Below are positions 3,355 through 21,167 of a DNA stretch of 38,249 nucleotides, piece by piece. This DNA comes from Phycisphaerae bacterium. Lineage in GTDB: Bacteria; Planctomycetota; Phycisphaerae; Phycisphaerales; UBA1924. Position 1 is the first letter of the stretch. Each line of letters begins with the position of its first letter. The stretch lies in contig JAUIFD010000011.1 in assembly GCA_030429485.1 (NCBI GenBank), forward strand, positions 1 through 38,249. Direction: 5' to 3'. The notes beneath the pieces were generated by a model. That model was not told the origin of the DNA, ran no database searches, and saw only the letters and a program-made list of their open reading frames with translations. The position numbers were made by a program, and so were the translations under genes.

Positions 3355-3381
3355 CTGTTGCTTTGGGGGACTTGTTCACCC

Positions 3382-3399
3382 GCCGGCTTCAAAGCCGGC
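3382..3399. repeat. Perfect inverted repeat upstream of the secreted protease gene
   Basis: GCCGGCTT (3382-3389) and AAGCCGGC (3392-3399) are perfect 8-nt arms around a 2-nt centre, ending 18 nt before the protease ATG. As DNA it is a symmetrical site that a dimeric regulator could bind; as RNA it would be a hairpin just upstream of the ribosome-binding region. No regulator is recognised. Confidence 0.45.
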
Positions 3400-3417
3400 T
3401 CTGTGGAGATTGACGGC

Positions 3418-6400
3418 ATGAAGCGGAAACTCGGGACTCTCGGGGTCGCTGGCATCGCCGGCGCCCTGGCGGGCGTCGCCTCGCCCAGCATCGCGCAAGA
3501 CGCACAGAAGTACCTCTACGACAACATCGACAAGGCCACGCCCGTCGAAGTCCGACGCGCAAACGTCGAAACTCGGTGGAACGCCACCCGCGTCGATCCG
3601 CACTTCATTCCGGAGGTCATCTACGGCGATGACGACCGCATCGAGGTCTATGAGGAAACCGATCCGCAGCTCAAGGCGATGGCCGACGCGTGCGTCGTTG
3701 TCGTCGACGCGAGCGAGCTCATTGACAACGGCGACGGCACCTACACCCTTCTGACCTCCGACTGGACGAGCCAAGGCGGGCTTCCGCTCTGCCCGGACGA
3801 GCCTTTCGTCGGGCAGCCCCAGATCGGGTTCTGCTCTGGGTTCATGGTCGGGTCCGACCTGATCGCGACCGCGGGCCACTGCGTGAGCCCAAGCGATGTC
3901 GGATCGGTCGGCTTCGTCTTCGGGTTCCGCATGCAAGGGCCCGGCCTGCCGCCGATGATCACCGTCTCGGCCGATGACGTGTACTTCGCGGCTCAGAGCG
4001 TGAACTACGCGCAGTCCGGCGACCTCGACCACTCCCTCGTGCGCGTCGATCGTCCGATCGTCGGACACAACCCCGTCCCGATCCGCCGCTCAGGCGAGCT
4101 CACCGGCGGCGAGCCCATGGCCGTCATCGGTCACCCCGTCGTGCTCCCGCAGAAGATCGGCGGCGGCGCGATCGTGAAGGACCCGCACACCGGCGTCGGG
4201 TACTACGAGTCCAACCTCGACACCTACGGCGGCAACTCGGGGTCCATGGTCGTCAACCTCGACACCTACGAGGTTGAGGGCATCCTCGTCCGCGGGATCA
4301 CCGACTTCGTCTTCGGCAGCTGCGTGTCCTCCAACCGCATCTCCGACAACAACGGCTCATACGAGGAGTGCTCCAAGGTCGGCGCGTTCGTTGATGACGT
4401 GCCGCCCCTCGGGCTCACCGTGCAGCCGCTTTCCAACACCACGCACATCGGCGTCGTGGGCGGACCGTTCACCAACACCAGCGTCGCCTACACCCTCAGC
4501 AACTCCACGTCCGACCCCGTCGATTACACCGTCGACTTCGACGTGCCCGGCGGGCAGGGATACGGGCTCACGATCGACGGCGGCTCCTCGCAGATCTCCG
4601 GCACGCTCCCCGCGAGCGGCCAGACCACCGTCACCGTCGCCCTCGGCGGCGGCGCCAACGCACTCGCCGCGGGCGTCTACACCGAGACCATCGTCTTCAC
4701 CGACGTCACCAACGCCCGTGCAGTCACCACCGATCACATCGTCGAGGTCGGGCAGACGCTCGTGAACGTCACCCCCGGTGACGATGTCTTCGCGAGCGGG
4801 CCGGTCGGTGGACCGTTCACCGGCGGATCGCAGACCTACACCATCACGAGCGAGCGCCCGACCGGCGTCACGGTTGACATCGCCGCGAGCGAATCGTGGA
4901 TCGATGTTGCGCAGTCATCCGTCGCACTGAACGGCACGGGTGACTTCGCCGACGTCAGCGTCTCGCTCGATCAGGGCGTGCTCTCTTCGTTCCCGGCGGG
5001 CATCATCACCGGGCAGGTTACCTTCACCAACATGACCTCCGGCGCTGTCACCTCGCGCGACGTCACCGTCGATGTCGGACGCTTCGTCTACAACTCGTCG
5101 GACACGCCCCAGCCCATCAACGACAACTCCACGATCTTCAGCTCCATCGACGTGTCCGAGTCCTTCTGCGTTGGCGATGTCGACGTGGAGCTCGACATCA
5201 ACCACACCTTCCAGGGCGATCTCATCGTCGAACTCACGAGCCCCCGCGGCACGACAGTCCGCCTCCACGATCGCACCGGCGGTGATGCCGATGACCTCAT
5301 CCTCACGTACGACCAGGACGGTGGCGTGCTGCCCGACGGTCCCGGCTCGCTCGATGACTTTGACACCGAGCCAAGCACTGGCCTCTGGACCCTCACCGTC
5401 TCCGACAACGCGGGCTTCGACACCGGCACGCTCAACTCGTGGTCGCTCCGCGTTGCTTCGGGCGGCGACGTCTGCCCGCCGTCGGCGGGCGATCTCGCCG
5501 TGCAGATCGCGCCGAACTCCTCCGAGGAGATCGCCCTCGTCGCCCTCCCCGGCGGATCGGGCAACGCGCCCGACTTCGTGATCACTTCGCTTCCCACGAG
5601 CGGCAAGCTGTGGGACCCGGCTGGTGGTTCGATTCTCTCCGTGCCCACCACGCTCTCGGGCGATTCGGTCATCTACCGGGCCGCGGTCGGCTTCCAGGGT
5701 GCCGACTCGTTCACCTACATCGCGACCGACGGGCTCGACTCCGACCCCGCCACCGTCTCGATCGACGTGACCCAGCAGCTCTACCTCGTGTTCGAGGACT
5801 TCGAGGGCGGCTCGCTGCCCGCCGGCTGGGCCGTGGAGGACTACGAGCCGGGCGGAAGCGCCACGACCTGGCGTGACAATGTCACCAACCTGCTCGGCAA
5901 CTACACAGGCGGCGCCGGGCTCTGCTACACGACCAACTCCGACGACTTCGTCGGTGAGTACGACGTGGCGCTGGTCACGCCGCCGTTCACCCCCGACGCC
6001 ACCTCCGAGCTCACGCTCCTGACCAACTACCAGAACCTCGCCAACGAGGACTTCGCCGATATCGACATCTCCACCGACGGTGGGTCGAGCTGGACCAACC
6101 TCCTCTCGTGGAACGAGGACCACGGCGCCTTCTTCGCCACCCCCGGCGAGTCGGTCGCCCTCAGCCTCGCCGCCTACGACGGGATCGAGTCCAAGCTCCG
6201 CTTCCACCACTACAACCCCAACACCTCCGACTTCGACTGGCACTGGGAGATCGATGACGTCGGCGTCAGCGCCGCGGCCGACGCGTGTGCGCCGGACCTC
6301 ACGGGCGAAGGCGACGTCAACACCAACGACTTCTTCGCCTTCCTCGCCCTCTACCAGGCGGGCGACCCCCTCGCCGATCTCACCAACGACGGCCTGATCA

Positions 6401-6450
6401 ACACCAACGACTTCTTCGCCTTCCTCGCCCTGTATCAGTCCGGCTGCTAA
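3418..6450 (+). CDS. Secreted trypsin-like serine protease with P-domain and dockerin-like tail
   Basis: A 1010-residue exported protein. A signal peptide ends near 'ASPSIAQDA'. A chymotrypsin-fold protease domain (about 85-330) shows the triad: His154 in TAGHC, Asp204 in DLDHSLVRV, Ser274 in YGGNSGSMV. Two related beta domains follow, each containing 'GGPFT' and a 'YT(L/I)' strand (about 345-455 and 460-555), resembling BACON-type modules. Next comes a proprotein-convertase P-domain (about 556-683; 'NHTFQGDLIVELTSPRGT', 'GLWTLTVSDNAG'), a cadherin/Ig-like domain, and a jelly-roll domain starting 'EDFEGGSLPAGW'. The C-terminus carries two near-identical calcium-loop repeats, '(V/I)NTNDFFAFLALYQ', and ends in Gly-Cys, a tail I recall from Phycisphaerae exoproteins. 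ATG 3418 is chosen because it starts the signal peptide. Substrate unknown; the tail suggests cell-surface anchoring or sorting. Confidence 0.85.
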   Translation: MKRKLGTLGVAGIAGALAGVASPSIAQDAQKYLYDNIDKATPVEVRRANVETRWNATRVDPHFIPEVIYGDDDRIEVYEETDPQLKAMADACVVVVDASELIDNGDGTYTLLTSDWTSQGGLPLCPDEPFVGQPQIGFCSGFMVGSDLIATAGHCVSPSDVGSVGFVFGFRMQGPGLPPMITVSADDVYFAAQSVNYAQSGDLDHSLVRVDRPIVGHNPVPIRRSGELTGGEPMAVIGHPVVLPQKIGGGAIVKDPHTGVGYYESNLDTYGGNSGSMVVNLDTYEVEGILVRGITDFVFGSCVSSNRISDNNGSYEECSKVGAFVDDVPPLGLTVQPLSNTTHIGVVGGPFTNTSVAYTLSNSTSDPVDYTVDFDVPGGQGYGLTIDGGSSQISGTLPASGQTTVTVALGGGANALAAGVYTETIVFTDVTNARAVTTDHIVEVGQTLVNVTPGDDVFASGPVGGPFTGGSQTYTITSERPTGVTVDIAASESWIDVAQSSVALNGTGDFADVSVSLDQGVLSSFPAGIITGQVTFTNMTSGAVTSRDVTVDVGRFVYNSSDTPQPINDNSTIFSSIDVSESFCVGDVDVELDINHTFQGDLIVELTSPRGTTVRLHDRTGGDADDLILTYDQDGGVLPDGPGSLDDFDTEPSTGLWTLTVSDNAGFDTGTLNSWSLRVASGGDVCPPSAGDLAVQIAPNSSEEIALVALPGGSGNAPDFVITSLPTSGKLWDPAGGSILSVPTTLSGDSVIYRAAVGFQGADSFTYIATDGLDSDPATVSIDVTQQLYLVFEDFEGGSLPAGWAVEDYEPGGSATTWRDNVTNLLGNYTGGAGLCYTTNSDDFVGEYDVALVTPPFTPDATSELTLLTNYQNLANEDFADIDISTDGGSSWTNLLSWNEDHGAFFATPGESVALSLAAYDGIESKLRFHHYNPNTSDFDWHWEIDDVGVSAAADACAPDLTGEGDVNTNDFFAFLALYQAGDPLADLTNDGLINTNDFFAFLALYQSGC

Positions 6451-6998: not shown

Positions 6999-7396
6999 CC
7001 CGGACGGTGCTGCACTGCAAGATCCACATGGCGAGCGTGACCGCCGCCAAGCACGACTACGTCGGCTCGATCACGATCGACGCCGAACTGCTCGATGCCG
7101 TCGGCCTGCGCGTCAACGACGTGGTCACCGTCGCGAACTGCGCCAACGGCGCTCGGTTTGAGACCTACGTCTTCCGGGGCGAGCCGGGCTCACGCGTCAT
7201 CGAGCTCAACGGCGCCTCGGCGCATCTTGTTTCCGAGGGCGATCGCGTGATCATCCTGCACTTCGCCCAGATGAACGACGAGGAGTATGCCTCGCACCGC
7301 CCGCGCGTGGCGCTCGTCAACGCCGACAACACCATCGATCGCCTGCTGCGCTACGAGCCCGACGTCGGGCACGAGCCGGTGCGCTTCCCGGGTTAG
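6995..7396 (+). CDS. panD: Aspartate 1-decarboxylase proenzyme PanD
   Basis: A 133-residue pyruvoyl enzyme that converts L-aspartate to beta-alanine for pantothenate and CoA synthesis. The N-terminus 'CKIHMASVTAAKHDYVGSIT' is diagnostic: Lys9 and the Gly24-Ser25 self-cleavage site sit at the same positions as in E. coli PanD. 'GRVNDVV'-like and 'NGASAHLVSEGDRVIIL' blocks complete the double-psi barrel. The start is GTG at 6995, overlapping the rsfS stop. aroB begins 4 nt after the stop, so rsfS-panD-aroB looks like one transcript. I see no processing-partner gene (panM/panZ) nearby. Confidence 0.95.
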   Translation: MTRTVLHCKIHMASVTAAKHDYVGSITIDAELLDAVGLRVNDVVTVANCANGARFETYVFRGEPGSRVIELNGASAHLVSEGDRVIILHFAQMNDEEYASHRPRVALVNADNTIDRLLRYEPDVGHEPVRFPG

Positions 7397-7400
7397 CGCA

Positions 7401-8558
7401 GTGAGCACGCCGACCCGAGTACGCGTGCTCGCCGGATCAGGGCCCTACGAGGTCGTGATCGGGAGTGGGCTGCGCGACCGTGTGCCCGAGTTCATCGCCT
7501 CCGCGCTCGGCTCGCTGCCCAAGCGCGCCCTCGAAGTGCGAGACACCAACGCCGCGACACACGCCGGCGCAGCCCTCGCGAGCGCGGGCGTCGAACTCAC
7601 CCCATGCACAGTCAATCCCAGCGAGCCCGCGAAGTCGCTTGAGACAACGGAGCGTCTCCTCCGCGCAGCTCTCGACGCCAAACTCGACCGCGCGGACTTC
7701 ATCGTCGGGCTCGGCGGCGGGATCGTCGGTGACGTCGCGGGATTCGTCGCCGCCACCTACCGACGCGGCGTGGCCTTCATCAACCGCCCGACCACGCTCC
7801 TGGCGATGGTCGATGCTTCGATCGGCGGTAAGACCGGCGTCAACCTGACCGACGAGTCGGGCCGGCTCCTCAAGAACATGGTTGGGTCGTTCCACCAGCC
7901 CGCCATCGTCATCGCCGACCTCGACACGCTCACCACGCTGCCCGCCCGTGTCTTCCGCGCCGGACTCGGCGAGTGCGTGAAGCACGCCCTGCTCGGGCCG
8001 GTGCATCATCAGCCCGACGCACTCGCCTGGCTTGAGCGCGTCGCCGAGGACCTCCGCGAGCCACGCACGCTGCGGGAACTGGTCGAGCGATCGGTGCGCC
8101 TCAAGGCCGCGGTCGTGGCCGGCGACGAGCGCGAAGACCCGCACGCCCCAGACGGGCGCGCCGCGCTCAACCTGGGGCACACCTACGCCCACGCGATGGA
8201 GACGATCGCCGGGCTCCGCATTCGCTCGGATGGAGCCGAGGCGACCGGGCTCATGCACGGCGAGGCGGTCGCGCTGGGGCTCGTCGCGGCATGCCGAGCG
8301 AGCGCGCTCGCCGGTCTGGCGGAATCTGCCCTGGAACGCCGCGTGCGGGTGCTGCTGGAGCGCCTCGGACTCCCCGACGCCGTCGCTGGCCTCCCCGACG
8401 ATGACGAACTCGTCGCCCGAATGGGCGCGGATAAGAAGGTCGTCGCCGGGCGCCAGAGGCTGGTGCTGCCCCTGCCTGAGGGTGGAGCGCGCGTCGTGGA
8501 AGGCGTGAATGCGCAAATCGTGCGCGGCGGTTGGGCCGCCGTACGCGCAGGATCTTGA
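7401..8558 (+). CDS. aroB: 3-dehydroquinate synthase AroB
   Basis: A 385-residue NAD- and metal-dependent enzyme of the shikimate pathway, converting DAHP to 3-dehydroquinate. Signature blocks in order: 'GLGGGIVGDVAGFVAATY' (NAD-binding glycine-rich segment), 'TTLLAMVDASIGGKTGVN' (substrate phosphate loop), 'AGLGECVKHALL', and the metal-ligand segments 'NLGHTYAHAME' and 'MHGEAVALG'. GTG 7401 gives a normal N-terminus leading into the first strand 'VRVLAGSGPYEVVIGSGL'. Starting further upstream would overlap panD in another frame and add unrelated sequence. Length is typical for the family (about 350-390). Confidence 0.95.
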   Translation: MSTPTRVRVLAGSGPYEVVIGSGLRDRVPEFIASALGSLPKRALEVRDTNAATHAGAALASAGVELTPCTVNPSEPAKSLETTERLLRAALDAKLDRADFIVGLGGGIVGDVAGFVAATYRRGVAFINRPTTLLAMVDASIGGKTGVNLTDESGRLLKNMVGSFHQPAIVIADLDTLTTLPARVFRAGLGECVKHALLGPVHHQPDALAWLERVAEDLREPRTLRELVERSVRLKAAVVAGDEREDPHAPDGRAALNLGHTYAHAMETIAGLRIRSDGAEATGLMHGEAVALGLVAACRASALAGLAESALERRVRVLLERLGLPDAVAGLPDDDELVARMGADKKVVAGRQRLVLPLPEGGARVVEGVNAQIVRGGWAAVRAGS

Positions 8559-8691: not shown

Positions 8692-10050
8692 GTGCGCACA
8701 ATCGCGATCATCAATCAGAAGGGCGGGTGCGGGAAGACCACGACGGCAATCAACCTGGCCGCCGTCCTTGCGAGTCGCCACTTTCGCACCCTGCTCGTCG
8801 ACGTCGATCCCCAATCCCACTGTGCCGCCGGTCTCGCCGTGCCCGAGGCCAGGATCGACCTCGACGTCACCGACGCCCTCCTCGCCTCGCCGGAGGAGCC
8901 GGTCGACTCGTCCCGCCTGATTTGGCCGGCGACGCGCAATCTTGACCTGGCCCCGAGTCGCACGCGCCTCGCCGGGCTCGAAAGCCCGCGCGGCGGGCTC
9001 GCCGACGCGCCCGATAAGGAACTCCGTCTGCGCACGGTCCTCGAGTCGTTCTCCTCGCGCTACGACGTCTGCCTGATCGACTGCTCACCCTCCATCGGCC
9101 TGCTCACCTTCAACGCCCTCGCCGCGGCCGACGAGGTGATCGTGCCGGTTGAGACGAGCTACTTCTCCCTCCAGGGCGCGACCAAGCAACTCTCGACGGT
9201 GCGCTCCATGGGGCGTCGCCTCGGACGCGAGCCACGCGCGTGGCTCCTTCCGACAATTCACGACGTCGAGAGCCCGCACGCCAACGACCTACTCGACGAA
9301 CTGCGGCGGCGGTTCGGTGCGCGCGTGCTTCCGGTTATTGTCCGTCGCGACATTGCGCTCAAGGAAGCCGCCAGCTTCGGACAACCGATCATTGAGTACG
9401 ACTCGCAGTCGCAAGGCGCAGCCGACTACCGAGCGCTGGGCGACTGGTTCATCGCCAACGACTCCGGCACCGCGCAGCCGCAAGAGGACTTCATCGAGCC
9501 GGAGGCGCAAGAAACAACAATGCCGATGCGCGCACCAACCGTCGCCGCGCAAACTTCGCCCGATCCCACGGCGCGAGTCGATGCGCTCGAGCGCCGGCGC
9601 GAGGCGGTCGCGTGGGCGACCAAGCACGGCTTCGACGGCACGGAAGCGGATCAGATCGCGGACGATCTCACATTTGCGCCCCCCGGCACAATCCCCGAGT
9701 CCGTGCGCAGGTTATTCGGCGCGCACGCGACAAGAGGGCGCGTGCTTTTCTTACAGCCACTGTCCATCGGACGCCGTGTGGCGGTTGCAGCCGAGTTCAA
9801 CGGATGGTCGGATGAGCCGCACGAGCTGGAGCGCAATGACCGCTTTGGCGTGCATGAGCTTTCCGTCCCCGTGACCCCCGGGCGCCACCTTTACCGCCTG
9901 GTCGTCGACGGGCACTGGACAGCCGATCATTACAACAGTGAGTGGGAACTGAACAGCTTCGGGCACCCGAATAGCGTGGTGAGCGTCCCGGTGCCGACCT
10001 CAACGCCGGCAGGTGGCGTAGAGTCGAGACCGGCGCACGTCGCCAGGTAG
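8692..10050 (+). CDS. ParA-family ATPase fused to a C-terminal glycogen-binding (CBM48/AMPK-beta-type) domain
   Basis: A 452-residue fusion. Residues 1-260 are a complete ParA/Soj ATPase: deviant Walker A KGGCGKTTT (10-18), 'LLVDVDPQSH' with Asp39, 'CLIDCSPSIG' with Asp130, and a closing 'SQGAADYRALGDWF'. A variable linker follows (about 270-350, including a short helical segment 'VDALERRREAVAWATKHGF'). Residues about 355-440 form an E-set sugar-binding module: 'VAAEFNGWS', 'PGRHLYRLVVDGHWTAD', 'FGHPNSVVSV'. Aligned by eye to the AMPK beta1 glycogen-binding domain, the sugar contacts appear as Trp372, Arg402 (for Lys), Trp409, Phe423 (for Leu) and Asn427. ParA ATPases move DNA or protein cargo over the nucleoid; a glycan-binding tail suggests a polysaccharide cargo, which is inference. 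GTG 8692 begins directly at the first beta strand. No ParB gene or parS-like site is visible. Confidence 0.85.
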   Translation: MRTIAIINQKGGCGKTTTAINLAAVLASRHFRTLLVDVDPQSHCAAGLAVPEARIDLDVTDALLASPEEPVDSSRLIWPATRNLDLAPSRTRLAGLESPRGGLADAPDKELRLRTVLESFSSRYDVCLIDCSPSIGLLTFNALAAADEVIVPVETSYFSLQGATKQLSTVRSMGRRLGREPRAWLLPTIHDVESPHANDLLDELRRRFGARVLPVIVRRDIALKEAASFGQPIIEYDSQSQGAADYRALGDWFIANDSGTAQPQEDFIEPEAQETTMPMRAPTVAAQTSPDPTARVDALERRREAVAWATKHGFDGTEADQIADDLTFAPPGTIPESVRRLFGAHATRGRVLFLQPLSIGRRVAVAAEFNGWSDEPHELERNDRFGVHELSVPVTPGRHLYRLVVDGHWTADHYNSEWELNSFGHPNSVVSVPVPTSTPAGGVESRPAHVAR

Positions 10051-10062: not shown

Positions 10063-11274
10063 ATGCCTCACGACGGGCTTGAGTCAGTGGCCCGAGTTCG
10101 CGCGCCGGAGACGGAGACGTCGATCGACGCGCTCGCCGACCTCTTCCTCGGAGAGGCGCTCCGACACGACGAACGTCCCGCGCACATCGCCGGGCGAATC
10201 GGCGGCGACGCGCCGGCGCTCTCCGCACCGACCGGTGTCGAGGTCATCGTGCTCGGGCAACTGCCCGTGCTCGCCTCGGCTTGGGCGGCGCAGTACGCGC
10301 GCACGCAGAGTGAGCGTCTCGGGCGGCCTGTCTGCCTCGCGCGTCTCACCGAACGCACCGCGACGATCGAGCTTGTTGGCGATCCGCGCGCTCCGGAGTC
10401 GCACGACACGCTCGAATCCGCCGTGACTCATGCACGCGCACACGCACACGGCTGGATTGTCCTCACCGAACTCGACGCGGGGACTGTCGCCGGCTTGGAA
10501 GACGTCCCCGCCATCACCGTGCTCACAGGTTCGGACGATGCGGCGGTCGTGGGTTGCTACACCACGCTGAAGTCAATCGTCGAGGCCCGTGGTTCGATGC
10601 AGGGGCTCGCGGTTCGTGTCGCGATCATGGGCGCGAGCGAAGCCGACGCAAAGGACGCACGCGAACGCATCGAGCGCGCCGCGCACCGCTTCCTCGACCT
10701 TCAGCCCGTCGTCGTCGTGGTGCCGACGATCAGCCCCGCCCCCACATGCACGCTCTATCGCGGCCAGAGTTCCGTCGACGGCGGAGGGCTCCTCTCACTC
10801 GTCACCCGCGCCGCCTCCCATCGAGAACCCGCGCCGAGCGCCGAGCCCAAAGCGACCGCAACGATCGAGCCACCGGCTCGGTTCATCGATGCACCGGAGA
10901 CCGGCCCCACTCCTCACGAAGGAGAGGCGCGCACCAGCTCGATTGACGGGCTCGATCCGCTGCCCATGCGTTGTCCGTACGCCCCCGGGGTCGAACTCGC
11001 GGTCGGGCGTGATGGAGGGCTGCACGCCATCGCCGACGGCGCCCTCGACGCGGTCGAGCAGCTCCTCGTCGCGTCGGCGTGGACCGATGACCACGCCGAG
11101 TTGCTCGAGGCCGCCGACGACCGCATCGATCCGGGCGCCGCGTGCGTGATGCACCTGATGACCTCGGATCCCCACCGGGCGGCCCGCCTGCTCTCGACCT
11201 CCATCCGCGTACACGTCACCAACGCCGCGGGTGAGCCGCTCGATTCGTGGCTCGCAAATCCGCAGCCCCGCTGA
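10063..11274 (+). CDS. Degenerate MinD/FlhG-like protein lacking the P-loop, partner of the ParA fusion (function unknown)
   Basis: A 403-residue protein, not confidently assigned to a named family. Residues about 55-230 follow the strand-helix order of MinD/FlhG ATPases. 'VEVIVLGQLPVLASAWAAQY' sits where a KGGxGKT loop is expected. 'GWIVLTELDAG' replaces the Walker B/A' Asp strand. 'AITVLTGSDDAAVVGCYTTL' and 'VRVAIMGASEADAKDARERI' resemble the FlhG 'TPEPTAITDAY..K' and 'VVNMVRSEAEA' blocks, followed by 'AAHRFLDLQPVVVVVP'. No nucleotide-binding lysine or Mg aspartate remains. A disordered Pro/Ala/Glu linker (about 260-310) leads to a C-terminal region (315-403) I do not recognise. It directly follows the ParA-glycan-binding fusion, so a regulatory partner is the natural inference. 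Alternative: an unrelated Rossmann-like protein. Confidence 0.7.
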   Translation: MPHDGLESVARVRAPETETSIDALADLFLGEALRHDERPAHIAGRIGGDAPALSAPTGVEVIVLGQLPVLASAWAAQYARTQSERLGRPVCLARLTERTATIELVGDPRAPESHDTLESAVTHARAHAHGWIVLTELDAGTVAGLEDVPAITVLTGSDDAAVVGCYTTLKSIVEARGSMQGLAVRVAIMGASEADAKDARERIERAAHRFLDLQPVVVVVPTISPAPTCTLYRGQSSVDGGGLLSLVTRAASHREPAPSAEPKATATIEPPARFIDAPETGPTPHEGEARTSSIDGLDPLPMRCPYAPGVELAVGRDGGLHAIADGALDAVEQLLVASAWTDDHAELLEAADDRIDPGAACVMHLMTSDPHRAARLLSTSIRVHVTNAAGEPLDSWLANPQPR

Positions 11275-11827: not shown

Positions 11828-13183
11828 CTACCAACCGCGGTATCCGCGCTCGAAGTCGTCGGCGAAGCCGAGCAGATCGAAGTGGCGCATGCTCGGCACC
11901 TCGCGCAACGGCTCGAGCAGCCAGCGGTCGCGATCATCGGGGCGGTCGTCCGCATCCAGCGGCGAGAACGTCGCCACAAACACCTCGCCCGATTCGGCGA
12001 CGACCACGATCGACATGCCGTCGTTCCGCGATGTCGCGTTGTCGCGCGGGTCGAAGGTCGCCCGCCCGTTGCCCTGCGAATACGTCCGAGGTGTAAAGCT
12101 GATCGTGGACGCGGACGTGTCAGTCCGCGTATCGATGAGCGCCTCGGAGAGTGAGCTGAGCACCCAACCGTTGGCGTTGATCCCCATGCCCGAGGCGCCG
12201 GAGCCGGGCGACCACCAGAGCGAAACGAGCTCGCCCGTGCCATCAACACCCTGCACCGAAAACGCGTTCCACCCCGTCGTGATGCCGCTCATCGAGCCGG
12301 GTGTAAACCCGACGTCGGTCAGGCCCGCCGCATCGGAGAGGCTCGTCAGACGCCACGAGTGCTCGCCCGAACCGTCGCGGAGCGCATGCACCGGCCCGCC
12401 GTGCCAGAGAGCCCACACCCCGCCGCTGGAATCCTGGAACCAGTGGTTCTCGGCGCCCCAGTACCCGGTGGAGTAGATGGACTCGGAGACGAGGCTCGAA
12501 AGCTCAGCGACCGCGCCGCTTCCGGCAAACGCGCCGCTGGGCGCGATCGCTCGGAAGCGGGCGACGAACGCGTCGCCGCCCGAGCGATCGGTGCGCGACC
12601 GATCACCGCGTCCCTGATCCGGAGTGCCGTCGTCGTCGGTTGAACCGCCGTCATTTCCGCGATCGCCACGCCCCCGATCGGGCGTGCCGTCGTCGTCAGA
12701 CGGTCCATTCCCGCCACCCCCGCGGCGTCCGTCTCGATCACCGCGTGAGCTGTCGTTGCTCCCGCCCGTGCCGTCACTATTGATGACAAGTGTGGCACTC
12801 GCGACATTGGACATCGGCTCACCACCAAGCGTGGCGACCGCAAAGAAGGTGTGCCTCTCTCCAAGCTGGAACGAACTCACCGGCTCCTTCCAGCGCCATC
12901 CAGACCCGCCATCGTCATAGGTACGATCGACGCCGAGCAGGGCATCGGCATCGGTGTAGCGTCCGTCGCCATCATCGTGGTAAAACGCGACGCTGAATGT
13001 CGCGAAGTCGTCGTTGTCTCCGCGCGTGTCTCCCCGCGAGCGACCCAAGTAAGCCTCGGCGTCGAGTTCGACCGCGTACGCGTTGAAATCGCTCTCGAAA
13101 GAGACCTCGGCCCCGAGCGTGAGCGAAACGCTGAGCAACGCCCGCGGTTCGAGAGCGTCGACGATGGCGCGATCATGCCGCAT
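11828..13183 (-). CDS. Exported LEPR-XLL-motif protein of unknown function
   Basis: A 451-residue protein. The N-terminus 'VDALEPRALLS' matches the LEPR-XLL motif found at the start of many planctomycete secreted proteins (recalled knowledge); it seems to act as an export or sorting element. Residues about 20-125 form a beta-rich domain with a calcium-loop-like 'YHDDGDGRYTDADAL'. Residues about 135-200 are a low-complexity Asp/Gly/Arg linker with a short repeat, 'DDDGTPDxGRGDR', twice. The C-terminal half (205-451) is rich in Trp, Gly and Ser ('STGYWGAENHWFQ', 'GWNAFSVQGVDG', 'GEVFVATF') and looks like a propeller or repeat domain that I cannot name. It is divergent from the ankyrin-carboxypeptidase gene (115 nt) and convergent with pgpA (0 nt). 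Confidence 0.75.
   Translation of the reverse strand: MRHDRAIVDALEPRALLSVSLTLGAEVSFESDFNAYAVELDAEAYLGRSRGDTRGDNDDFATFSVAFYHDDGDGRYTDADALLGVDRTYDDGGSGWRWKEPVSSFQLGERHTFFAVATLGGEPMSNVASATLVINSDGTGGSNDSSRGDRDGRRGGGGNGPSDDDGTPDRGRGDRGNDGGSTDDDGTPDQGRGDRSRTDRSGGDAFVARFRAIAPSGAFAGSGAVAELSSLVSESIYSTGYWGAENHWFQDSSGGVWALWHGGPVHALRDGSGEHSWRLTSLSDAAGLTDVGFTPGSMSGITTGWNAFSVQGVDGTGELVSLWWSPGSGASGMGINANGWVLSSLSEALIDTRTDTSASTISFTPRTYSQGNGRATFDPRDNATSRNDGMSIVVVAESGEVFVATFSPLDADDRPDDRDRWLLEPLREVPSMRHFDLLGFADDFERGYRGW
12600..12700 (-). repeat. Imperfect tandem repeat encoding the Asp/Gly/Arg linker
   Basis: Two copies, about 12600-12640 and 12660-12700, share GTGCCGTCGTCGTC and flanking sequence. Read on the minus strand they encode DDDGTPDxGRGDR twice. 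It is an in-frame spacer repeat within the LEPR-XLL gene. Confidence 0.55.
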
Positions 13184-13243
13184 TCTGGTTACTCCTATTC
13201 GTGACAGCCTAACGTGGCGGCTGGCGCCTGCTCAGATACGGCT

Positions 13244-13272
13244 TTGGTCAGAATGCTCGAATGTGCTAGCCT
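13244..13272 (+). promoter_or_regulatory. Weak promoter candidate for the ankyrin-carboxypeptidase gene
   Basis: TTGGTC (13244-13249) and TAGCCT (13267-13272) are separated by 17 nt, with 3 of 6 consensus matches each. It lies in the 115-nt divergent spacer. A GGAG at 13287-13290, 8 nt before ATG 13299, would serve as ribosome-binding site. Confidence 0.25.
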
Positions 13273-13298
13273 GCCCGTTCAATCTTGGAGTCGACGCA

Positions 13299-15824
13299 AT
13301 GAATAGCGGTGTGTTCTCGGTCGTCCGGGCCTGTGGGCTCGCGTGCGGGGTTTCCTTGGCTGCCGCGGCCTCAGGCCAGGTTTCGCCTGATACGAGCTCC
13401 CGCCGCGGGATCGCCATGAGCGTCGGCGACCGGCTCGGACGCACCCCTCTGCACGTGGCGGCTCTGGCGGGTGAGGCCGACGCTGTCGCCCGCTTGCTGG
13501 CGGGAGGGGCGGATATCCACGCCCGCGACGCCCTGGGCGAGACCCCAATCCACGCGGCAGCAAAGCGCCTGAGGGCCGAGTGCGTGCAGCTGCTGCTCGA
13601 CGCCGGCGCCGATCCGAACGCGATCACGAACGTGGGGCTGACGCCGCTCGCCCTGGGGGCCTCGCTCGGGCATGGTGATCCCGAGCAGGACGTGATGCTC
13701 GAGAAGTGCGCGACGCTGCTGTTGATCGCCGGCGCCGACCCGTCGGTCGCGGACAACCGCGGCGTCACCCCGCTCGGGCACGCGAAGTACCGCGGGTACT
13801 CGCGCACCGCGGACCTTCTCCGCGGTCTCGATGCGGCGCCCGGCGTCGATCGCAAGATGCTCGATGACATTGGCGCATTCGAGGAGGCCTACCGCACCCA
13901 CGCGCAGATCGAGCAGATTCTCACCGACGCTGCAGCGAACTACCCGGCGCTCGCTCGCAAGGTCGTGCTCGGGCAGAGCGTGCAGGGACGCAACATCTCC
14001 GCGCTCAACATCTCGCGCAACGTGGGCGTCGAAGAGAACGAGCCGGAGCTGCGCTACATCTCCACCATGCACGGCGACGAGATCGTCGGCAACGAGATGA
14101 TGCTCTACCTCATCGACGAGATCCTCACCAACTACGGCTCCGATGCGCAGGTCACCGCCCTCGTCGATTCCGCGGACCTCTGGATCGTGCCCCTCATGAA
14201 CCCCGATGGGTACGTCCTCGGGCAACGCACCAACGCCAACGGGTACGACCTCAACCGCAGCTTCCCCGACCCCTACACCTCTCCCGACAACACCACCGCC
14301 GGCCGCCAGCCCGAGGTCGCGGCGATCATGAACTGGACCTTCGACAACTCCTTCTCCCTCTCGGCCAACTTCCACACCGGCGCGCTCGTCGCCAACTACC
14401 CCTTCGACTCGAATCCCGCGGGCTCAAGCACGTTCTCCCCCTCGCCCGACGAGAACCTCTTCGTGCATATGTCCGAGCAGTACGCCCTGCACAACACGCC
14501 GATGCTCAACAGCTCGGTCTTCCCCGGCGGCATCACCAACGGGGCGGCGTGGTACCAGATCGACGGCGGGATGCAGGACTGGAACTACGTCTTCATGGGC
14601 TCTAACGAGATCACGGTCGAACTCTCCGACATCAAGGGCCCCGCGTCGTCGCAGATCCCTACGTTCTGGAGCCAGAACCGCGACTCGCTGCTCGCCTATT
14701 GGGAGACGATCTACACGCGTATCACCGGACGCGTCACCGACGCTGGCACGGGCGCGCCGCTCGCCGCGACGGTCACGCTCCTCGGGCGTGATCACAAGAC
14801 CTACACCGACCCCGACGTGGGCGACTACCACCGCATGGTGCGCCCGGGCACCTACCGCATCCTCGTCGAGGCTGACGGATACGACCCCGTCGAAGTCACG
14901 GGCATCAACGTCATCGACGGCACGCCGACCATCGTCGACGTCGGCATGGCGCCGGGGCCGATCGTCCTTTCACCCAACGGCGGCGAAGTCATCGCAACGG
15001 GCGCTCCCACCACCATCGAGTGGGCCGGCGCCCCCGGCGTGCAGTACCAAGTGCAGCAGACCGCCAACTACGGCGAGCAAGGCGTCACCACCGACGGCTT
15101 CGAGCGCACGACGCTCGGCGTCGATTACGCGACCGCGGGCAATCAGCCCTGGCACACGACCACGTCCGACGCCAACGCCGGCGCCTACTCCGCCCAGGCG
15201 GGCGACATCAACGACCGTCAGATGTCGGAGATGTCGCGCGTCATCGAGGGCCCAGCCACCATCTCATTCCGGTACCGCGTGAGCTCCGAATCCGGCTTCG
15301 ACTACTTCCGCTTCCTCATCGACGACGCGCCCGTCCTCTCGCGCGCCGGACTCATCGGGTGGACCGCCTTCGAGACCACCGTCGGCCCCGGCTCCCACAC
15401 GCTCACTTGGCGCTACGACAAGGACTTCTCCTTCTCCGCCGGGCTCGATACGGCGTGGATCGACGAGCTCTCGATCGACGCCGACGTGACCGCATGGGGC
15501 GACGTCGTCGCCCAGTCCGACCCCGGCGCGACCACCATCGCCTGGACACCCACCACCCCCACCACCGACGCCCGCGTCCGCGTCCGCTCCATCCTCGGCT
15601 CCGGGCTCTACGGACAGTGGGATGAGTCCGACGCGAGCTTCACCATCGACGGCGACGCCTGCGCCCCCGACCTCACCGGCGAAGGTGACGTCAACACCAA
15701 CGACTTCTTTATGTTCCTGAGCCTCTACCAGAGCCAGGACTTGCGGGCCGACTTCGCCGCCGATGGCCAGATCAACACCAACGACTTCTTCGCGTACCTC
15801 GCGGCGTATCAAGCGGGGTGTTGA
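13299..15824 (+). CDS. Secreted ankyrin-repeat / M14 zinc carboxypeptidase with dockerin-like tail
   Basis: An 841-residue exported protein. A signal peptide ends near 'AAAASGQVS'. Four ankyrin repeats (about 45-175) are recognisable by 'GRTPLHVAALAG', 'GETPIHAAAK', 'GLTPLALGAS' and 'GVTPLGHAKY'. An M14 metallocarboxypeptidase domain (about 190-460) has the zinc ligands His258 and Glu261 (MHGDE) and His359 (NFHTG), the substrate-binding 'GYDLNRSFPD', and the catalytic Glu441 in 'NEITVELSD', as in the carboxypeptidase D/E subfamily. It continues with a transthyretin-like regulatory domain ('RITGRVTDAGTGAPL'), a jelly-roll domain with 'FRYRVSSESGFDYFRFLID', and a C-terminal dockerin-like pair, 'GDVNTNDFF' and 'QINTNDFFAYL', ending Gly-Cys. 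It should remove C-terminal residues from peptides outside the cytoplasm. Ankyrin repeats on a secreted carboxypeptidase are unusual. Confidence 0.85.
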   Translation: MNSGVFSVVRACGLACGVSLAAAASGQVSPDTSSRRGIAMSVGDRLGRTPLHVAALAGEADAVARLLAGGADIHARDALGETPIHAAAKRLRAECVQLLLDAGADPNAITNVGLTPLALGASLGHGDPEQDVMLEKCATLLLIAGADPSVADNRGVTPLGHAKYRGYSRTADLLRGLDAAPGVDRKMLDDIGAFEEAYRTHAQIEQILTDAAANYPALARKVVLGQSVQGRNISALNISRNVGVEENEPELRYISTMHGDEIVGNEMMLYLIDEILTNYGSDAQVTALVDSADLWIVPLMNPDGYVLGQRTNANGYDLNRSFPDPYTSPDNTTAGRQPEVAAIMNWTFDNSFSLSANFHTGALVANYPFDSNPAGSSTFSPSPDENLFVHMSEQYALHNTPMLNSSVFPGGITNGAAWYQIDGGMQDWNYVFMGSNEITVELSDIKGPASSQIPTFWSQNRDSLLAYWETIYTRITGRVTDAGTGAPLAATVTLLGRDHKTYTDPDVGDYHRMVRPGTYRILVEADGYDPVEVTGINVIDGTPTIVDVGMAPGPIVLSPNGGEVIATGAPTTIEWAGAPGVQYQVQQTANYGEQGVTTDGFERTTLGVDYATAGNQPWHTTTSDANAGAYSAQAGDINDRQMSEMSRVIEGPATISFRYRVSSESGFDYFRFLIDDAPVLSRAGLIGWTAFETTVGPGSHTLTWRYDKDFSFSAGLDTAWIDELSIDADVTAWGDVVAQSDPGATTIAWTPTTPTTDARVRVRSILGSGLYGQWDESDASFTIDGDACAPDLTGEGDVNTNDFFMFLSLYQSQDLRADFAADGQINTNDFFAYLAAYQAGC

Positions 15825-16022: not shown

Positions 16023-17621
16023 CTACGCGTCCTCGTCCTTCTCCGTCTTCCGCACCTCGCGCACGGGTCTCGGCTCATCCTCATCCACCACGCGCCCCAG
16101 CGCGCTCGGAAGCTCCACGCCCGCCTGCTTCGCGAGCTCGTGAACCGGCGGGAGTGAGCCGATGAGCCCGGAGAGGAAGTCCGCGGTCGTGCCCCGCGTC
16201 CCCGTGCTGCCCTTCGCCTCTCCCTTGCCCGAATCCCACACCGTGATCTTGTCGATCTTCAGGTTCTGCACCGCCTTGACCTGCTCGGCGACCAGCTCCG
16301 GCAGCTTCTCGATGAGCAGGAGCGTCGGCGCGATCTCCGGATGATCGGCACACGCCGCCATCAGCTGACGATACCCGTCCGCCTTGCCCTGGAGCACCTT
16401 CTGGATGCCCTCGGCCTCGGCTTCGTACTTCGCCAGGATCGCGTCGGCCTCGCCTCGCGCCTCGCGACGCGCCTTCTCCGCCGCCGCCTCGGCCGCGATC
16501 TCGATCCGCTTCTTCTCGATCTCCTGCGGCGCGAGCTGCTCCTTCGCCAGACGCGCCAGCTCCTGCTCGCGCTCCGCGATCAGGATCGCCTCATGCGCCT
16601 GCGCCGACGCGACCTCCGCACGACGCTGCGCAGCTGCACGGATCTCCGCGAGCTTCGCGTTCGATTCCGCGATCCCCGCAGCCGACGTGTTTTCACCATC
16701 GACCGCGTGCGCCTCAGCGTCCGCGACCTGCACACGCTGCGCCTGCTCCGCACGCTTCGCAGCGGCGACCATTTCGGCGTTGCGTTCCGCGACCGCGATG
16801 TCCTGGTCACGCTTCGACTCGGCTTCGCCCGTGATCGCCTGCGCCTCAAACTGCGCCACCGCCACGCGCTTGCCGCGCTCAGCGGCCTTCTGCCCCTGCT
16901 CGGCCTTCGCACGCTCCTCCGCCACGCGCACGTTGCGCTCGCGGATCGCCTGCGCCTCGCCGATCGCGCCCTCGCGCTCCTGCTCCGCGACCTCGACCTT
17001 CGCCCGGTTGATCGCCTCGGCCGCCGCCCGCTGACCAATCGCGACGATGTACCCCGACTCATCGGTGATGTCGCGAATATTGACGTTGATCAACTCAAGG
17101 CCGATCTTGTTGATCTCCTGCGCGACGTTCTCGTTGATCAGGTTCATGAACTTCTCGCGGTCCTTGTTGATCTCCTCGATCGACAAGGTCGCGATCACCA
17201 GACGCAGCTGACCCAGGATGATGTCCTGCGCCTGCTCCCGGACGAACTGCATCGGCTTGTCGAGCAAGCGCTCCGCCGCGTTGTTCATGAGCACCGGATC
17301 CGACGAGATCGCCACGGTGAACGTCGAGGGCACGTTCACACGGATGTTGTTGAGCGAAAGCGCGCCCTCAAGCGGGATGTCGATCACGATCGGCTCGAGC
17401 GAGAGGTACGAGTAACCCTGGATGAGCGGGATCACGAGCGAGCCGCCGCCGTGATGGCACCGCGACGACTTGCCCTCACCCACCTTGCCGTAGATCACGA
17501 GCACCCGGTTCGACGGGCACCGCTTGTACAGCATCTTCACGATCATGATCACGAAGATCACGATCAACATCAGCCCGAAGACGACGCCGAGCCAGATCAA
17601 TGGTGTGATGTTCTCAGGCAA
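16023..17621 (-). CDS. Flotillin-like SPFH-domain membrane protein
   Basis: A 532-residue protein. One N-terminal membrane segment (about 8-32) is followed by an SPFH/band-7 domain (about 35-210; 'SLEPIVIDIPLEGALSLNNI', 'ERLLDKPMQFVREQAQDII'). A long Ala/Glu-rich coiled-coil flotillin domain (about 210-430) has repeated 'AE(R/A)' heptads, and the tail includes 'ALGRVVDEDEP'. Flotillins oligomerise in membrane microdomains and scaffold signalling and secretion proteins. The start is TTG at 17621, supported by the minus-strand GGGAGGG a few bases upstream; the next in-frame codons lead straight into the membrane segment. The NfeD-like gene lies 41 nt upstream on the same strand, the usual flotillin partner (as yuaF-floT in Bacillus). 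Confidence 0.92.
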   Translation of the reverse strand: MPENITPLIWLGVVFGLMLIVIFVIMIVKMLYKRCPSNRVLVIYGKVGEGKSSRCHHGGGSLVIPLIQGYSYLSLEPIVIDIPLEGALSLNNIRVNVPSTFTVAISSDPVLMNNAAERLLDKPMQFVREQAQDIILGQLRLVIATLSIEEINKDREKFMNLINENVAQEINKIGLELINVNIRDITDESGYIVAIGQRAAAEAINRAKVEVAEQEREGAIGEAQAIRERNVRVAEERAKAEQGQKAAERGKRVAVAQFEAQAITGEAESKRDQDIAVAERNAEMVAAAKRAEQAQRVQVADAEAHAVDGENTSAAGIAESNAKLAEIRAAAQRRAEVASAQAHEAILIAEREQELARLAKEQLAPQEIEKKRIEIAAEAAAEKARREARGEADAILAKYEAEAEGIQKVLQGKADGYRQLMAACADHPEIAPTLLLIEKLPELVAEQVKAVQNLKIDKITVWDSGKGEAKGSTGTRGTTADFLSGLIGSLPPVHELAKQAGVELPSALGRVVDEDEPRPVREVRKTEKDEDA

Positions 17622-17662: not shown

Positions 17663-18247
17663 CTACGCGGGCTCAACAATCAGTGTGTTGTCAGCGGTCG
17701 CCGCGGTCACACGCACGCGTGTGCCGCGCTCGATCTGGCCGCCCTCGGTCAGCGCCGAGTATTCGCGCATCCGCTCGTCGATCACGACGCGCACGATGCC
17801 GGAGCCTGTGCGCTCACCCGGCACCCGGACGTACACCTCCGCCTCGCGCCCCACCGCGTGGCGGAGCGACACGTTGCCCGACGATTGCAGGCGGTAGACC
17901 TTCGTGAGCATCCACGCCAGCACCCACACAAAGCCGACGCCGATCACCGTGGCGATCGCGACCGAGGGCCAGACACCCAGCCCCGACCCGCGGTACGCCC
18001 CGAGCCCGCCGAGCCCGAAGCCCATCGCGAACGTGACGACCGACTGCAGCGAGACGATCTCAAAGGACTTGTCCGAAGCGTCCGCGTCGAGGTCGTCGAG
18101 GTCGAGGTCAACATCGTCGATGCCGCCCGCCCCGTCGTCGATATCGCCGCCCACGAGCATGAGGACGACGCGCAGGATGAAGAACCCCGTCCCGACAATC
18201 GCCGGGATGGTGAACCACGCTGCATGTCCGCCGAAGAGCAGTTCCAC
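17663..18247 (-). CDS. NfeD-like membrane protein (YuaF type), flotillin partner
   Basis: A 194-residue protein with three to four membrane segments (about 8-35, 65-90, 95-120). Between the first two is a highly acidic loop, 'DIDDGAGGIDDVDLDLDDLD'. The C-terminal domain (about 130-194) is a soluble OB fold ending 'GTRVRVTAATADNTLIVEPA', the NfeD C-terminal signature. It probably works with the downstream flotillin in membrane organisation. The start is GTG at 18247, preceded on the minus strand by GGGAGGGG with 5 nt spacing. It lacks the ClpP-like domain of long NfeD proteins. Confidence 0.85.
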   Translation of the reverse strand: MELLFGGHAAWFTIPAIVGTGFFILRVVLMLVGGDIDDGAGGIDDVDLDLDDLDADASDKSFEIVSLQSVVTFAMGFGLGGLGAYRGSGLGVWPSVAIATVIGVGFVWVLAWMLTKVYRLQSSGNVSLRHAVGREAEVYVRVPGERTGSGIVRVVIDERMREYSALTEGGQIERGTRVRVTAATADNTLIVEPA

Positions 18248-18390: not shown

Positions 18391-19449
18391 TCAGGCGGCC
18401 AGGTCGAGGTCGTCGTCCGCGTCGCCCGCGAGCCCCCAGGGGTCGGACGCCACGTGACGATGATGCACCCGGATCACCCGCGCCAGCTGCGCGGCGAACA
18501 CCGGCGCCAACATCGCGAGCGTCTGCTCGCACTCGGCGCCAAACGGCGTGCGCTCGTCGCGGAACAGGAACGTCACCGCCAGGCACTCGCCATCCTCTTC
18601 GACACTCGGCACACACACCGCGCCGTACCCCTCGAGGTCCGCCGCGTGTGCGCCCAGATGCTCACCCAGCGCCCGAGCGTGCGGCATGGCGGTGACCCCC
18701 GGACGGGACTCAAACCGCATCCCCACCGTCGTCGCCATCGCGTCCAGACGGGCCTCCACCTCGTCGCGCGGGCAGTCGTAGTTCACATACGCCCCGAGCG
18801 AGTACGACCCCTGCGACGCGGGCAGGAAGATCGCCGCGTTGGTCGACCCCAGCTTCGCCAGCAGATACTCGAGCACGGTGCGGAGCAACGGCTCAAGCTC
18901 GAGCTCCTGGCGGATCAGTGCTTCAAACTCGCAGAGTGTGCGCATCTGCGACATTTCTTCGGTCAGATACTGGTAGGCGTCCGCCAGTTGGTCGCACATC
19001 GAGCCCACCTGCGCAGACATCGACTCCTGCGATTCCAAGAGCGTCTCCGTCGCCCGCCGATACCGCTCTCCGCCCCGAGCTCGGGCCGTCCTCGCCAGAG
19101 CATCGCCCAAGCGGGACAGGTCGTCGGGCACGAGCGGAAGCTCAACCTGATCGAGCGCTCCGGCCCGCATGGCGCCGACCGCCGACTCCAGATCCGGGCA
19201 GTGCGTGAGCATCACGACGCCTGTCCCTCGCCCGACCAACTCCCCCACGAGTTCCATCGCTCCGCCGCGGTCGTCGGCGACCAGCGCCAGTTCCACGTCC
19301 CGCTCCGCGATCAGCTCGCGGGCTCGGTCGGCCGAGGCCGCGCTCCGGCAGACCCACCCGAGGGTGCGTCGGAGCCTCGCCGCCACCGCGCGAGCGTCCC
19401 GCGTCGATGCGACCACCAGCACTTGGGTCGGAGCCCCTCGATCGCTCAT
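18391..19449 (-). CDS. Pseudo-receiver plus GAF-domain signalling protein
   Basis: A 352-residue cytoplasmic protein. Residues 8-125 have a receiver-domain fold ('TQVLVVASTRDARAVAARL', 'VELALVADDRGG', 'GVVMLTHCPDLESAV'), but key residues are altered. The acidic pair after strand 1 is Ser15-Thr16, and the Lys of the usual 'KP' is missing ('VELPLVPDD'). An acceptor-like Asp59 remains. A helical linker (125-180, 'ESQESMSAQVGSMCDQLADAY') leads to a GAF domain (about 185-330, 'LEPLLRTVLEYLLAKLGSTN', 'AAIFLP', 'YGAVCVPSVEEDGECLAVTF'), a sensor of small ligands or redox state. There is no output domain. The ATG overlaps the stop of the upstream kinase by 4 nt (ATGA). Confidence 0.82.
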   Translation of the reverse strand: MSDRGAPTQVLVVASTRDARAVAARLRRTLGWVCRSAASADRARELIAERDVELALVADDRGGAMELVGELVGRGTGVVMLTHCPDLESAVGAMRAGALDQVELPLVPDDLSRLGDALARTARARGGERYRRATETLLESQESMSAQVGSMCDQLADAYQYLTEEMSQMRTLCEFEALIRQELELEPLLRTVLEYLLAKLGSTNAAIFLPASQGSYSLGAYVNYDCPRDEVEARLDAMATTVGMRFESRPGVTAMPHARALGEHLGAHAADLEGYGAVCVPSVEEDGECLAVTFLFRDERTPFGAECEQTLAMLAPVFAAQLARVIRVHHRHVASDPWGLAGDADDDLDLAA

Positions 19450-21167
19450 GCCGCCGCGCTCCCCACCACGTCGTCAAGCCGCCCGGGCAGACCGATCGTG
19501 ACCAGCGCACCGCCTTCGGGCTTGTTCGCGATCCGGATTGTCCCGTCCATTGCTTCGATCATCGCTCTCGCTCGCGTAAGCCCGAGCCCGACCCCGCGCC
19601 CCGCCTCGCGATCGCTGAAGAACGCGTCGAACGCGTGCTTGAGCGCCCGCTCGGAGAAGCCCGGTCCGAGGTCTCCTACCGCGATGCTCCATCGGCCGGG
19701 CTCGGGGTCGGCGTAAGCGCGAACGTCGATCACGCCCCGCGGATTCACGCGCCGAGCGTTGTCGATGAGGGCGCGCATCGCGTCCATCACGAGTTCTCGA
19801 TCAACCCGCACCATGCCCACGCCCGAGGGGGCGTCCACCCGCACGTCCTCGCCGAATCGAGACCGGTCAAAGAGCGTCGACGCGTCATGCACGGCGGGAC
19901 GCGCCTTTGGAGGGTCCGCCAGTTCATACAACGTCGTGATCAGCGAGGTCGCGCGGCGCGCCGCATCGGCGATCGACCTCGCCGCGTCGCGATGGTCGCC
20001 CTCCGGCAGCCGCTCGGCCAGGATCTGCGCGCGCCCGTGAATCACGGCGAGGGGGTTATTCAGCTCGTGCGCCGCTCCCGCGGTGATCTCGCCGAGCCGC
20101 GCCATCGCTTCCGCGTGCGCCGCGCGACGCTCAGCCTCGATAATGCGCTGCTGCGCCCGCCGCAGCGAATCCGCACGACGCTCGGCGACCTCTCTCGCCT
20201 CCTGCGTTCTCGCCTGCTCGGCGGCGAGCTTGGCGTGAAGTCCACCCAGCGCCGCGTTCGCCTGCGCGATCGATCGCAGCAGAACCGTGTCGGTCGGCTC
20301 ACCCTCAAGCCCGAGAAGCTCACTGCGCGAGCGAAACTGCTCGTGCAGCGACTTCACCACCACCTTGAGCGCCACTTCCTCAACCCCGGCGGAGCCGAGG
20401 AGAGACACCGGGCTCGGCGCCGGGTCGTAGTCGTGCGCTTCTCCGAGGTGCATCGAACGCACAATCGCCGACGCAAGCGAGGTCATGGGCCCGATGCGCC
20501 CCGCTCCCTCGCCCGCGTCCGCCGTCGTCGCGCGCAGGAATACCTCCGGGAGTCCCCACCGACCGAATACGCGCCGGGCCGCCTGGTGATGGTCGAGACC
20601 CAGGATTTCTCGCTCGATGGGTGCGCTCGCCGACGATCGCTCGCGCGCCACGCGCAGCACCCGCGCATACGCCCCGGGCAACGCCAGATCGAGCATCGCC
20701 CGGCCCGCCGCGTGCAACAGCCCACACGAGAACGCGGTGCCCGGGTCGAGTCGCGGCCGCACGTAGGGCGCGAGCAACTCCGCGGCACACGCCACACCGA
20801 GCGAGTACCGCCAGAACGAGAGCCGGCAGAACCCGTCCTCCTCGCGCGACGGCGCCGCACCGTCCAACAACTCATACACCGAAACCGAGAGCACCGCGGC
20901 CCGCACCGCGTCGAGCCCGAGCAGTGTCGCGGCTTGACGCACGGATGACACACGACGCCCGACGCCGCGATCGGCCCGCGAACTCAGCGCGAGGATCTTC
21001 GACGACAACGCCGGGTCCGATTCCACCAGCGCCGCGACCTCACGCAGCCCCGTATCGTCCGAGCCAGTCACCGCCAGCACGCGCGACGCGACCGAAGAGA
21101 GCGTCGGGAGCTCGTCGAGCTGCGCCAACACCGCTTCGGCCCGGCGCTCGAGCTCGGCCTTGTTCAC
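19446..21167 (-). CDS. HDOD-domain sensor histidine kinase
   Basis: A 573-residue cytoplasmic protein with no membrane segment. Residues about 15-225 form an HDOD domain ('LPTLSSVASRVLAVT', 'LVESDPALSSKILALSS', 'FSCGLLHAAGRAMLDLALPG'). A coiled coil (about 310-355, 'QARTQEAREVAERRADSL') follows. The dimerisation/phosphoacceptor helix has His367 in 'GAAHELNNPLAVIHGR'. The ATPase domain has the N box 'ALIDNARRVNP', G1 'VGDLGPGF' and G2 'GRGVGLGLTRARAM' (about 520-530). HDOD domains sense or relay cytoplasmic signals; the kinase should phosphorylate a receiver, most likely the upstream HTH-receiver protein. GTG 21167 overlaps that gene's stop by 4 nt (GTGA). Confidence 0.88.
   Translation of the reverse strand: MNKAELERRAEAVLAQLDELPTLSSVASRVLAVTGSDDTGLREVAALVESDPALSSKILALSSRADRGVGRRVSSVRQAATLLGLDAVRAAVLSVSVYELLDGAAPSREEDGFCRLSFWRYSLGVACAAELLAPYVRPRLDPGTAFSCGLLHAAGRAMLDLALPGAYARVLRVARERSSASAPIEREILGLDHHQAARRVFGRWGLPEVFLRATTADAGEGAGRIGPMTSLASAIVRSMHLGEAHDYDPAPSPVSLLGSAGVEEVALKVVVKSLHEQFRSRSELLGLEGEPTDTVLLRSIAQANAALGGLHAKLAAEQARTQEAREVAERRADSLRRAQQRIIEAERRAAHAEAMARLGEITAGAAHELNNPLAVIHGRAQILAERLPEGDHRDAARSIADAARRATSLITTLYELADPPKARPAVHDASTLFDRSRFGEDVRVDAPSGVGMVRVDRELVMDAMRALIDNARRVNPRGVIDVRAYADPEPGRWSIAVGDLGPGFSERALKHAFDAFFSDREAGRGVGLGLTRARAMIEAMDGTIRIANKPEGGALVTIGLPGRLDDVVGSAAA

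Follow-up and report, generated by a model that had tools for sequence, protein, structure and literature searches.

A ParA-type ATPase fused to an AMPK beta-like glycogen-binding domain (CBM48), hereafter ParA-CBM, is encoded in the 38,249-nucleotide stretch of Phycisphaerae DNA that we analysed (the window), and the fusion is restricted to the class Phycisphaerae. The gene directly downstream encodes a putative pseudo-ATPase derived from FlhG. We consider it about an even call that the two genes make up a ParA/MinD-type module for spatial organisation that is specific to the class and has an alpha-glucan input built in. The coordinates of the locus are given in Table 1.

Table 1. Features of the ParA-CBM locus, in window coordinates.
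Feature	Position	Strand	Basis or remark
aroB (3-dehydroquinate synthase)	7290..8558	+	upstream neighbour in 34/80 loci; context, outside the mechanism
ParA ATPase with C-terminal CBM48	8692-10050	+	ORF, 452 residues
ParA ATPase domain, residues 1-255	8692..9456	+	KGGCGKT Walker A, D39, D130, K224; Soj/ParA fold
Linker between ParA and CBM48	9457..9717	+	disordered 273-290; predicted helices 292-311, 316-328
CBM48/AMPK-beta-like glycogen-binding domain, residues 343-432	9718..9987	+	Pfam, phmmer, conserved contact residues
Partner, putative FlhG-derived pseudo-ATPase with added C-terminal domain	10063..11274	+	adjacency, Foldseek, profile matches
Partner N-terminal conserved helix, DALADLFLG motif, inside an otherwise disordered tail	10114..10149	+	
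GQLPV at the FlhG Walker A position, no P-loop lysine	10255..10269	+	
Partner C-terminal alpha/beta domain, residues 292-388 of the GTG-started ORF	10930..11220	+	no Pfam match

The Pfam profile AAA_31 matched the N-terminal domain of ParA-CBM (residues 1-255, E 1.2e-42), and the GTG start at 8692 was supported by an invariant Met at residue 1 in a 50-row alignment. K10 and K15 of KGGCGKT, D39 and D130 were identical in all 73 relatives, that is, the deviant Walker A with its signature lysine and the catalytic and Walker B aspartates were all present. This agrees with the original prediction, made from the DNA letters and their translations, that the ParA motifs are intact. The AlphaFold2 model of ParA-CBM had a mean pLDDT of 89, and Foldseek placed it close to Soj (9a6n, target TM-score 0.93) and ParA (8ray, 0.92). 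The closest PDB relatives of the ParA domain were ParA 8ray (40-41% in Foldseek) and Soj 9a6n, 6iub and 2bek. Residue 224 was basic (K or R) in 73/73 relatives and is Lys in the window protein. Residue 222, which would correspond to a DNA-binding arginine of B. subtilis Soj, was K or R in 50/73 relatives and is Ala in the window protein. The linker that follows the ParA domain varied from 55 to 200 residues among relatives, with a median of about 100.

A BcsQ-like ATPase serving envelope polysaccharide export or synthesis is another reading, in line with the glucan-binding domain and with the CBP_BcsQ profile, which all 50 relatives matched. However, AAA_31 scored far higher, Soj and ParA were the nearest PDB relatives, and no bcs or glycosyltransferase gene was conserved at the locus, so that we regard this reading as most improbable.

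The C-terminal domain of the window protein matched the Pfam profile AMPK1_CBM (PF16561) at residues 360-433, with 28.4 bits against a cut-off of 26.8, while CBM_48 (PF02922) scored slightly below its cut-off. All 50 aligned family members matched PF16561 at E<=0.001, the best with E 1.7e-16. When the isolated domain was searched with phmmer, the best PDB matches were the AMPK beta-1 structures 4yef and 1z0n (E 6e-5 to 7e-5). The AlphaFold2 block-mean pLDDT was 93-98 across residues 341-430. The AMPK-beta/CBM48 module that had been proposed from the sequence is thus borne out by both the profile search and the structure prediction that were suggested with it.

In AMPK beta1, W100, K126, W133, L146 and N150 touch the sugar, and mutation of the tested contact residues strongly lowers glycogen binding (PMC2642990; PMC4032982). 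In the alignment these positions correspond to W372, R402, W409, F423 and N427 of ParA-CBM, the same mapping that had been drawn by eye, and they are conserved. W372 was kept in 71/73 relatives, W409 in 67/73 and N427 in 62/73; position 402 was Arg in 66 and Lys in 4 of the 73, and position 423 was Phe or Tyr in 59. The complete W-R-W-(F/Y)-N set was found in 55/73. The domain therefore belongs to the AMPK beta glycogen-binding family and keeps both Trp and the Asn, but differs in the replacement of Lys by Arg and of Leu by Phe or Tyr, and in AMPK T148, which is not conserved (H425 in the window protein, Glu in 52/73 relatives). In AMPK the domain sits in a kinase complex, whereas here it is fused to a ParA ATPase.

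One or both of the Trp residues equivalent to W100 and W133 were lost in six relatives, and glucan binding may be gone in some of these lineages. The loss of these residues, the window score barely over the cut-off and the repeated loss of the whole domain described below would also fit an E-set domain that serves protein-protein contact only and binds no glucan. We consider this unlikely, as the joint presence of W-R-W-(F/Y)-N in 55/73 relatives is hard to explain without ligand binding.

A scan of genome contigs found 80 loci; almost all carried the label Phycisphaerae or Planctomycetota, and most were full-length matches. By our own count in a sample of the class, the ParA+CBM fusion was present in 97/159 Phycisphaerae genomes; it was absent from four whole families and from most of a fifth. 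None of about 330 non-Phycisphaerae genomes of the phylum carried it. In the phylum sample of 392 genomes all matches at E<=1e-80 came from Phycisphaerae, except one match to the ParA part only. The ParA+CBM48 architecture that had been read from the sequence is supported. One locus without CBM (L023) lies on a contig titled Cyanobacteria (CYA N2_1); its ParA is nearly identical to that of the Phycisphaerales locus L022 and its partner gene is similar, and this contig is probably mis-binned. Many Phycisphaerae genomes also have stand-alone AMPK1_CBM ORFs, of about 100-140 residues and in some cases 700-1000.

In a tree of the ParA domain, which was a quick tree with many open forks, CBM-less relatives were nested within the CBM-bearing clade, and at least four changes were needed. 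Given this nesting, the CBM was most likely ancestral to this ParA family and then lost at least four times. ParA and the partner were retained without the CBM in six loci and three class genomes, so that the CBM is not indispensable.

The partner ORF opens at GTG 10057, and ATG 10063, which lies 12 bases past the ParA-CBM stop codon, has GGAGGG 7 bases upstream. Homologues of the partner were found directly downstream in at least 52/80 loci (clustering gave 50 and the profile added 2). At no fewer than one further locus (L081) the downstream ORF has a similar N-terminal LADLLLG motif and is too diverged for the partner profile, and in one Sedimentisphaerales-like branch no partner was found at the downstream position. 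A Pfam search of the partner matched no family. The AlphaFold2 model (pLDDT 81) matched FlhG 4rz2 in Foldseek with E 6e-6 and probability 1.00; the TM-scores were modest (0.45 by target), as for a distant match. The partner profile also matched proteins of about 300 residues in most class genomes, with E down to 1e-13, and the two of these that we examined had a P-loop and were encoded beside an SRP54-type GTPase, i.e. as flhF-flhG. A profile-profile alignment of the partner and ParA-CBM was in register and not significant; the relationship to FlhG rests on the structure match and the profile matches, not on this comparison.

The family consensus GHLPV (GQLPV in the window) replaces the FlhG Walker A SGKGGVGKS, which makes the partner a predicted pseudo-ATPase. 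By its modelled MinD-like fold and its similarity to FlhG, the partner is FlhG-derived and, with Walker A absent, not itself an FlhG. Compared with FlhG, the MinD-like ATPase of flagellar number and placement, it shares the fold and recognisable sequence but has no Walker A and no flhF neighbour, and it has an added C-terminal domain and a different N-terminal helix. The original prediction had placed the cargo-binding element in the ATPase itself instead of in an adaptor. That proposal needs revision, since an adaptor-like partner lies directly downstream and had been overlooked.

Other genes of the window were also noted. Two large ORFs (3358-6450 and 13083-15824) terminate with a pair of dockerin-like repeats, DLTGEGDVNTNDFF...DLTNDGLINTNDFFAFLALYQSGC; by eye the first appears trypsin-like and the second has ankyrin-like and carboxypeptidase-like parts. 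On the reverse strand, a flotillin/SPFH gene (16023-17621) adjoins an ORF at 17663-18247 whose product by eye resembles a membrane protein bearing an NfeD-like tail, and 19446-21167 encodes a fusion of an HDOD domain with a histidine kinase (HisKA and HATPase_c).

We looked for signs of chromosome segregation. A search of the window for parS-like sites, allowing up to 3 mismatches to TGTTTCACGTGAAACA, found none, and no parB-like gene was seen adjoining the ParA-CBM gene, so the locus lacks the linked parB and parS of a ParABS system. ParB (TIGR00180) was present in 154/159 class genomes, and it lay within 10 kb of ParA-CBM in 1/83 genomes for which both positions were listed. The single case, 5.6 kb away with other ORFs intervening, was set aside as a linkage. 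A Soj-like ParA other than the fusion was found in 20/20 genomes searched, including those without the fusion. With ParB encoded elsewhere and another ParA in every genome checked, chromosome segregation is unlikely, and a role of ParA-CBM outside it is likely on these genomic grounds; the argument against segregation made earlier from the absence of parB and parS is supported.

The opposite reading, that ParA-CBM is the chromosomal ParA of the class and acts with a distantly encoded ParB, draws on its Soj-like fold and sequence on the presence of ParB in 154/159 genomes, and on its position in the single-contig class genomes compared, where it adjoins no Soj-like ParA match. We judge it very unlikely, because the second Soj-like ParA has no CBM and occurs in fusion-less genomes too, because about 62/159 class genomes have no clear fusion and yet nearly all have ParB, and because of the rare linkage and the lack of parS described above. 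ParA-CBM thus shares its fold and catalytic motifs with Soj/ParA of ParABS and differs by the C-terminal CBM48, the lack of a linked parB and a pseudo-FlhG partner of its own.

The genome from which the window comes encodes, on contig 12, a full branching enzyme GlgB (811 bits) near a GDE_N/GDE_C debranching enzyme, which makes a branched glucan plausible there. Neither a classical GlgA nor a phosphorylase was found in this genome; their absence had been considered as a refutation of the glycogen link and was dropped after GlgB and GDE were found. Across the class, classical GlgA (TIGR02095) is nearly absent, while many genomes have the debranching enzyme and a phosphorylase. Co-occurrence of the fusion with glucan genes (GlgA, GlgB, phosphorylase and GDE) was tested across the 159 class genomes. 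Of the genomes with the fusion, 95/97 had at least one of three markers, as had 61/62 of those without (Fisher p 1.0). Since hardly any class genome lacks all of these markers, the test is uninformative rather than negative. Two fusion-bearing genomes had 0/3 markers.

A dedicated system for positioning or partitioning glycogen granules, in which the CBM would hold the granule and ParA dynamics would spread granules over the nucleoid, is a doubtful reading. The conserved contact residues and the GlgB and GDE of the genome are in line with it, and ParA relatives place carboxysomes and other bodies (PMC10241942; PMC13052382). In McdAB, however, the cargo carries the adaptor and not the ATPase, and an ATPase anchored to its cargo could set up the customary gradient only through weak or switchable binding. 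There is also no phylogenetic association with glucan genes, and at least four losses of the CBM left ParA and the partner in place. Glycogen granules, as first proposed, are a candidate cargo.

For the two-gene module with an alpha-glucan input, we propose the following mechanism. In the ATP-bound state, ParA-CBM dimers would attach non-specifically to the nucleoid, using basic residues close to the region with which Soj binds DNA. Residue 224 is basic in all relatives and 222 in most, but Ala222 in the window protein speaks against this step. The pseudo-FlhG partner would act as adaptor and ATPase activator, its N-terminal LADLFL tail contacting the ParA dimer; it is the adjacency of the two genes that points to this contact. 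The activator step is drawn by analogy with other ParA/MinD partners, whose tails are basic (PMC10241942), and the partner tail is not basic, which argues against activation as in known ParA partners. Through CBM48 bound to intracellular alpha-glucan, the ATPase would be coupled to glycogen, which might be a cargo or tether or might signal the carbon status. Core specificity would lie in the partner, with the CBM as an ancestral yet removable input. Since the CBM can be removed while the partner stays, we assign the core function to ParA and the partner together, with the caveat that one branch has the CBM and no adjacent partner.

If the CBM is an input, glucan on it could, as in AMPK beta, regulate the ATPase as a carbon-status sensor, and the ATPase would position something else, such as division-site, pole, motility or envelope machinery, through the pseudo-FlhG. 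It fits that FlhG, from which the partner descends, regulates flagellar number and placement, that the CBM is dispensable in some lineages and that AMPK beta is an allosteric glycogen sensor (PMC2642990), but no division or flagellar gene is conserved beside the locus. We hold this reading possible, and only tentatively. Carboxysome positioning by McdAB likewise uses a ParA-type ATPase with a dedicated partner alongside and no parB; McdA, unlike ParA-CBM, has no carbohydrate module, and McdB, which lies beside mcdA, is not of the FlhG type, whereas the neighbour of ParA-CBM has the FlhG fold.

No ParA with a CBM48 and no dedicated bacterial glycogen-positioning system was found in the literature searched, which covers few subscription papers. 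A 2025 review of organelle positioning treats carboxysomes, magnetosomes, PHB and polyphosphate and never mentions glycogen (PMC13052382). ParA-CBM and its partner may place or sense an intracellular carbohydrate body. In the boldest version, they would be a ParA-type system devoted to glycogen placement or partitioning, the first of its kind, with an ATPase that rides the nucleoid, carries its own glucan module and is switched by a pseudo-FlhG. We regard this idea as rather unlikely; if true, such a glycogen-placing system would be conserved in a large part of one bacterial class. The pseudo-FlhG partner would mean that a retired MinD-family ATPase now serves as the partner of an active one. 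Orphan ParA proteins seldom give so direct a hint of their cargo or input as this class-wide fusion does.
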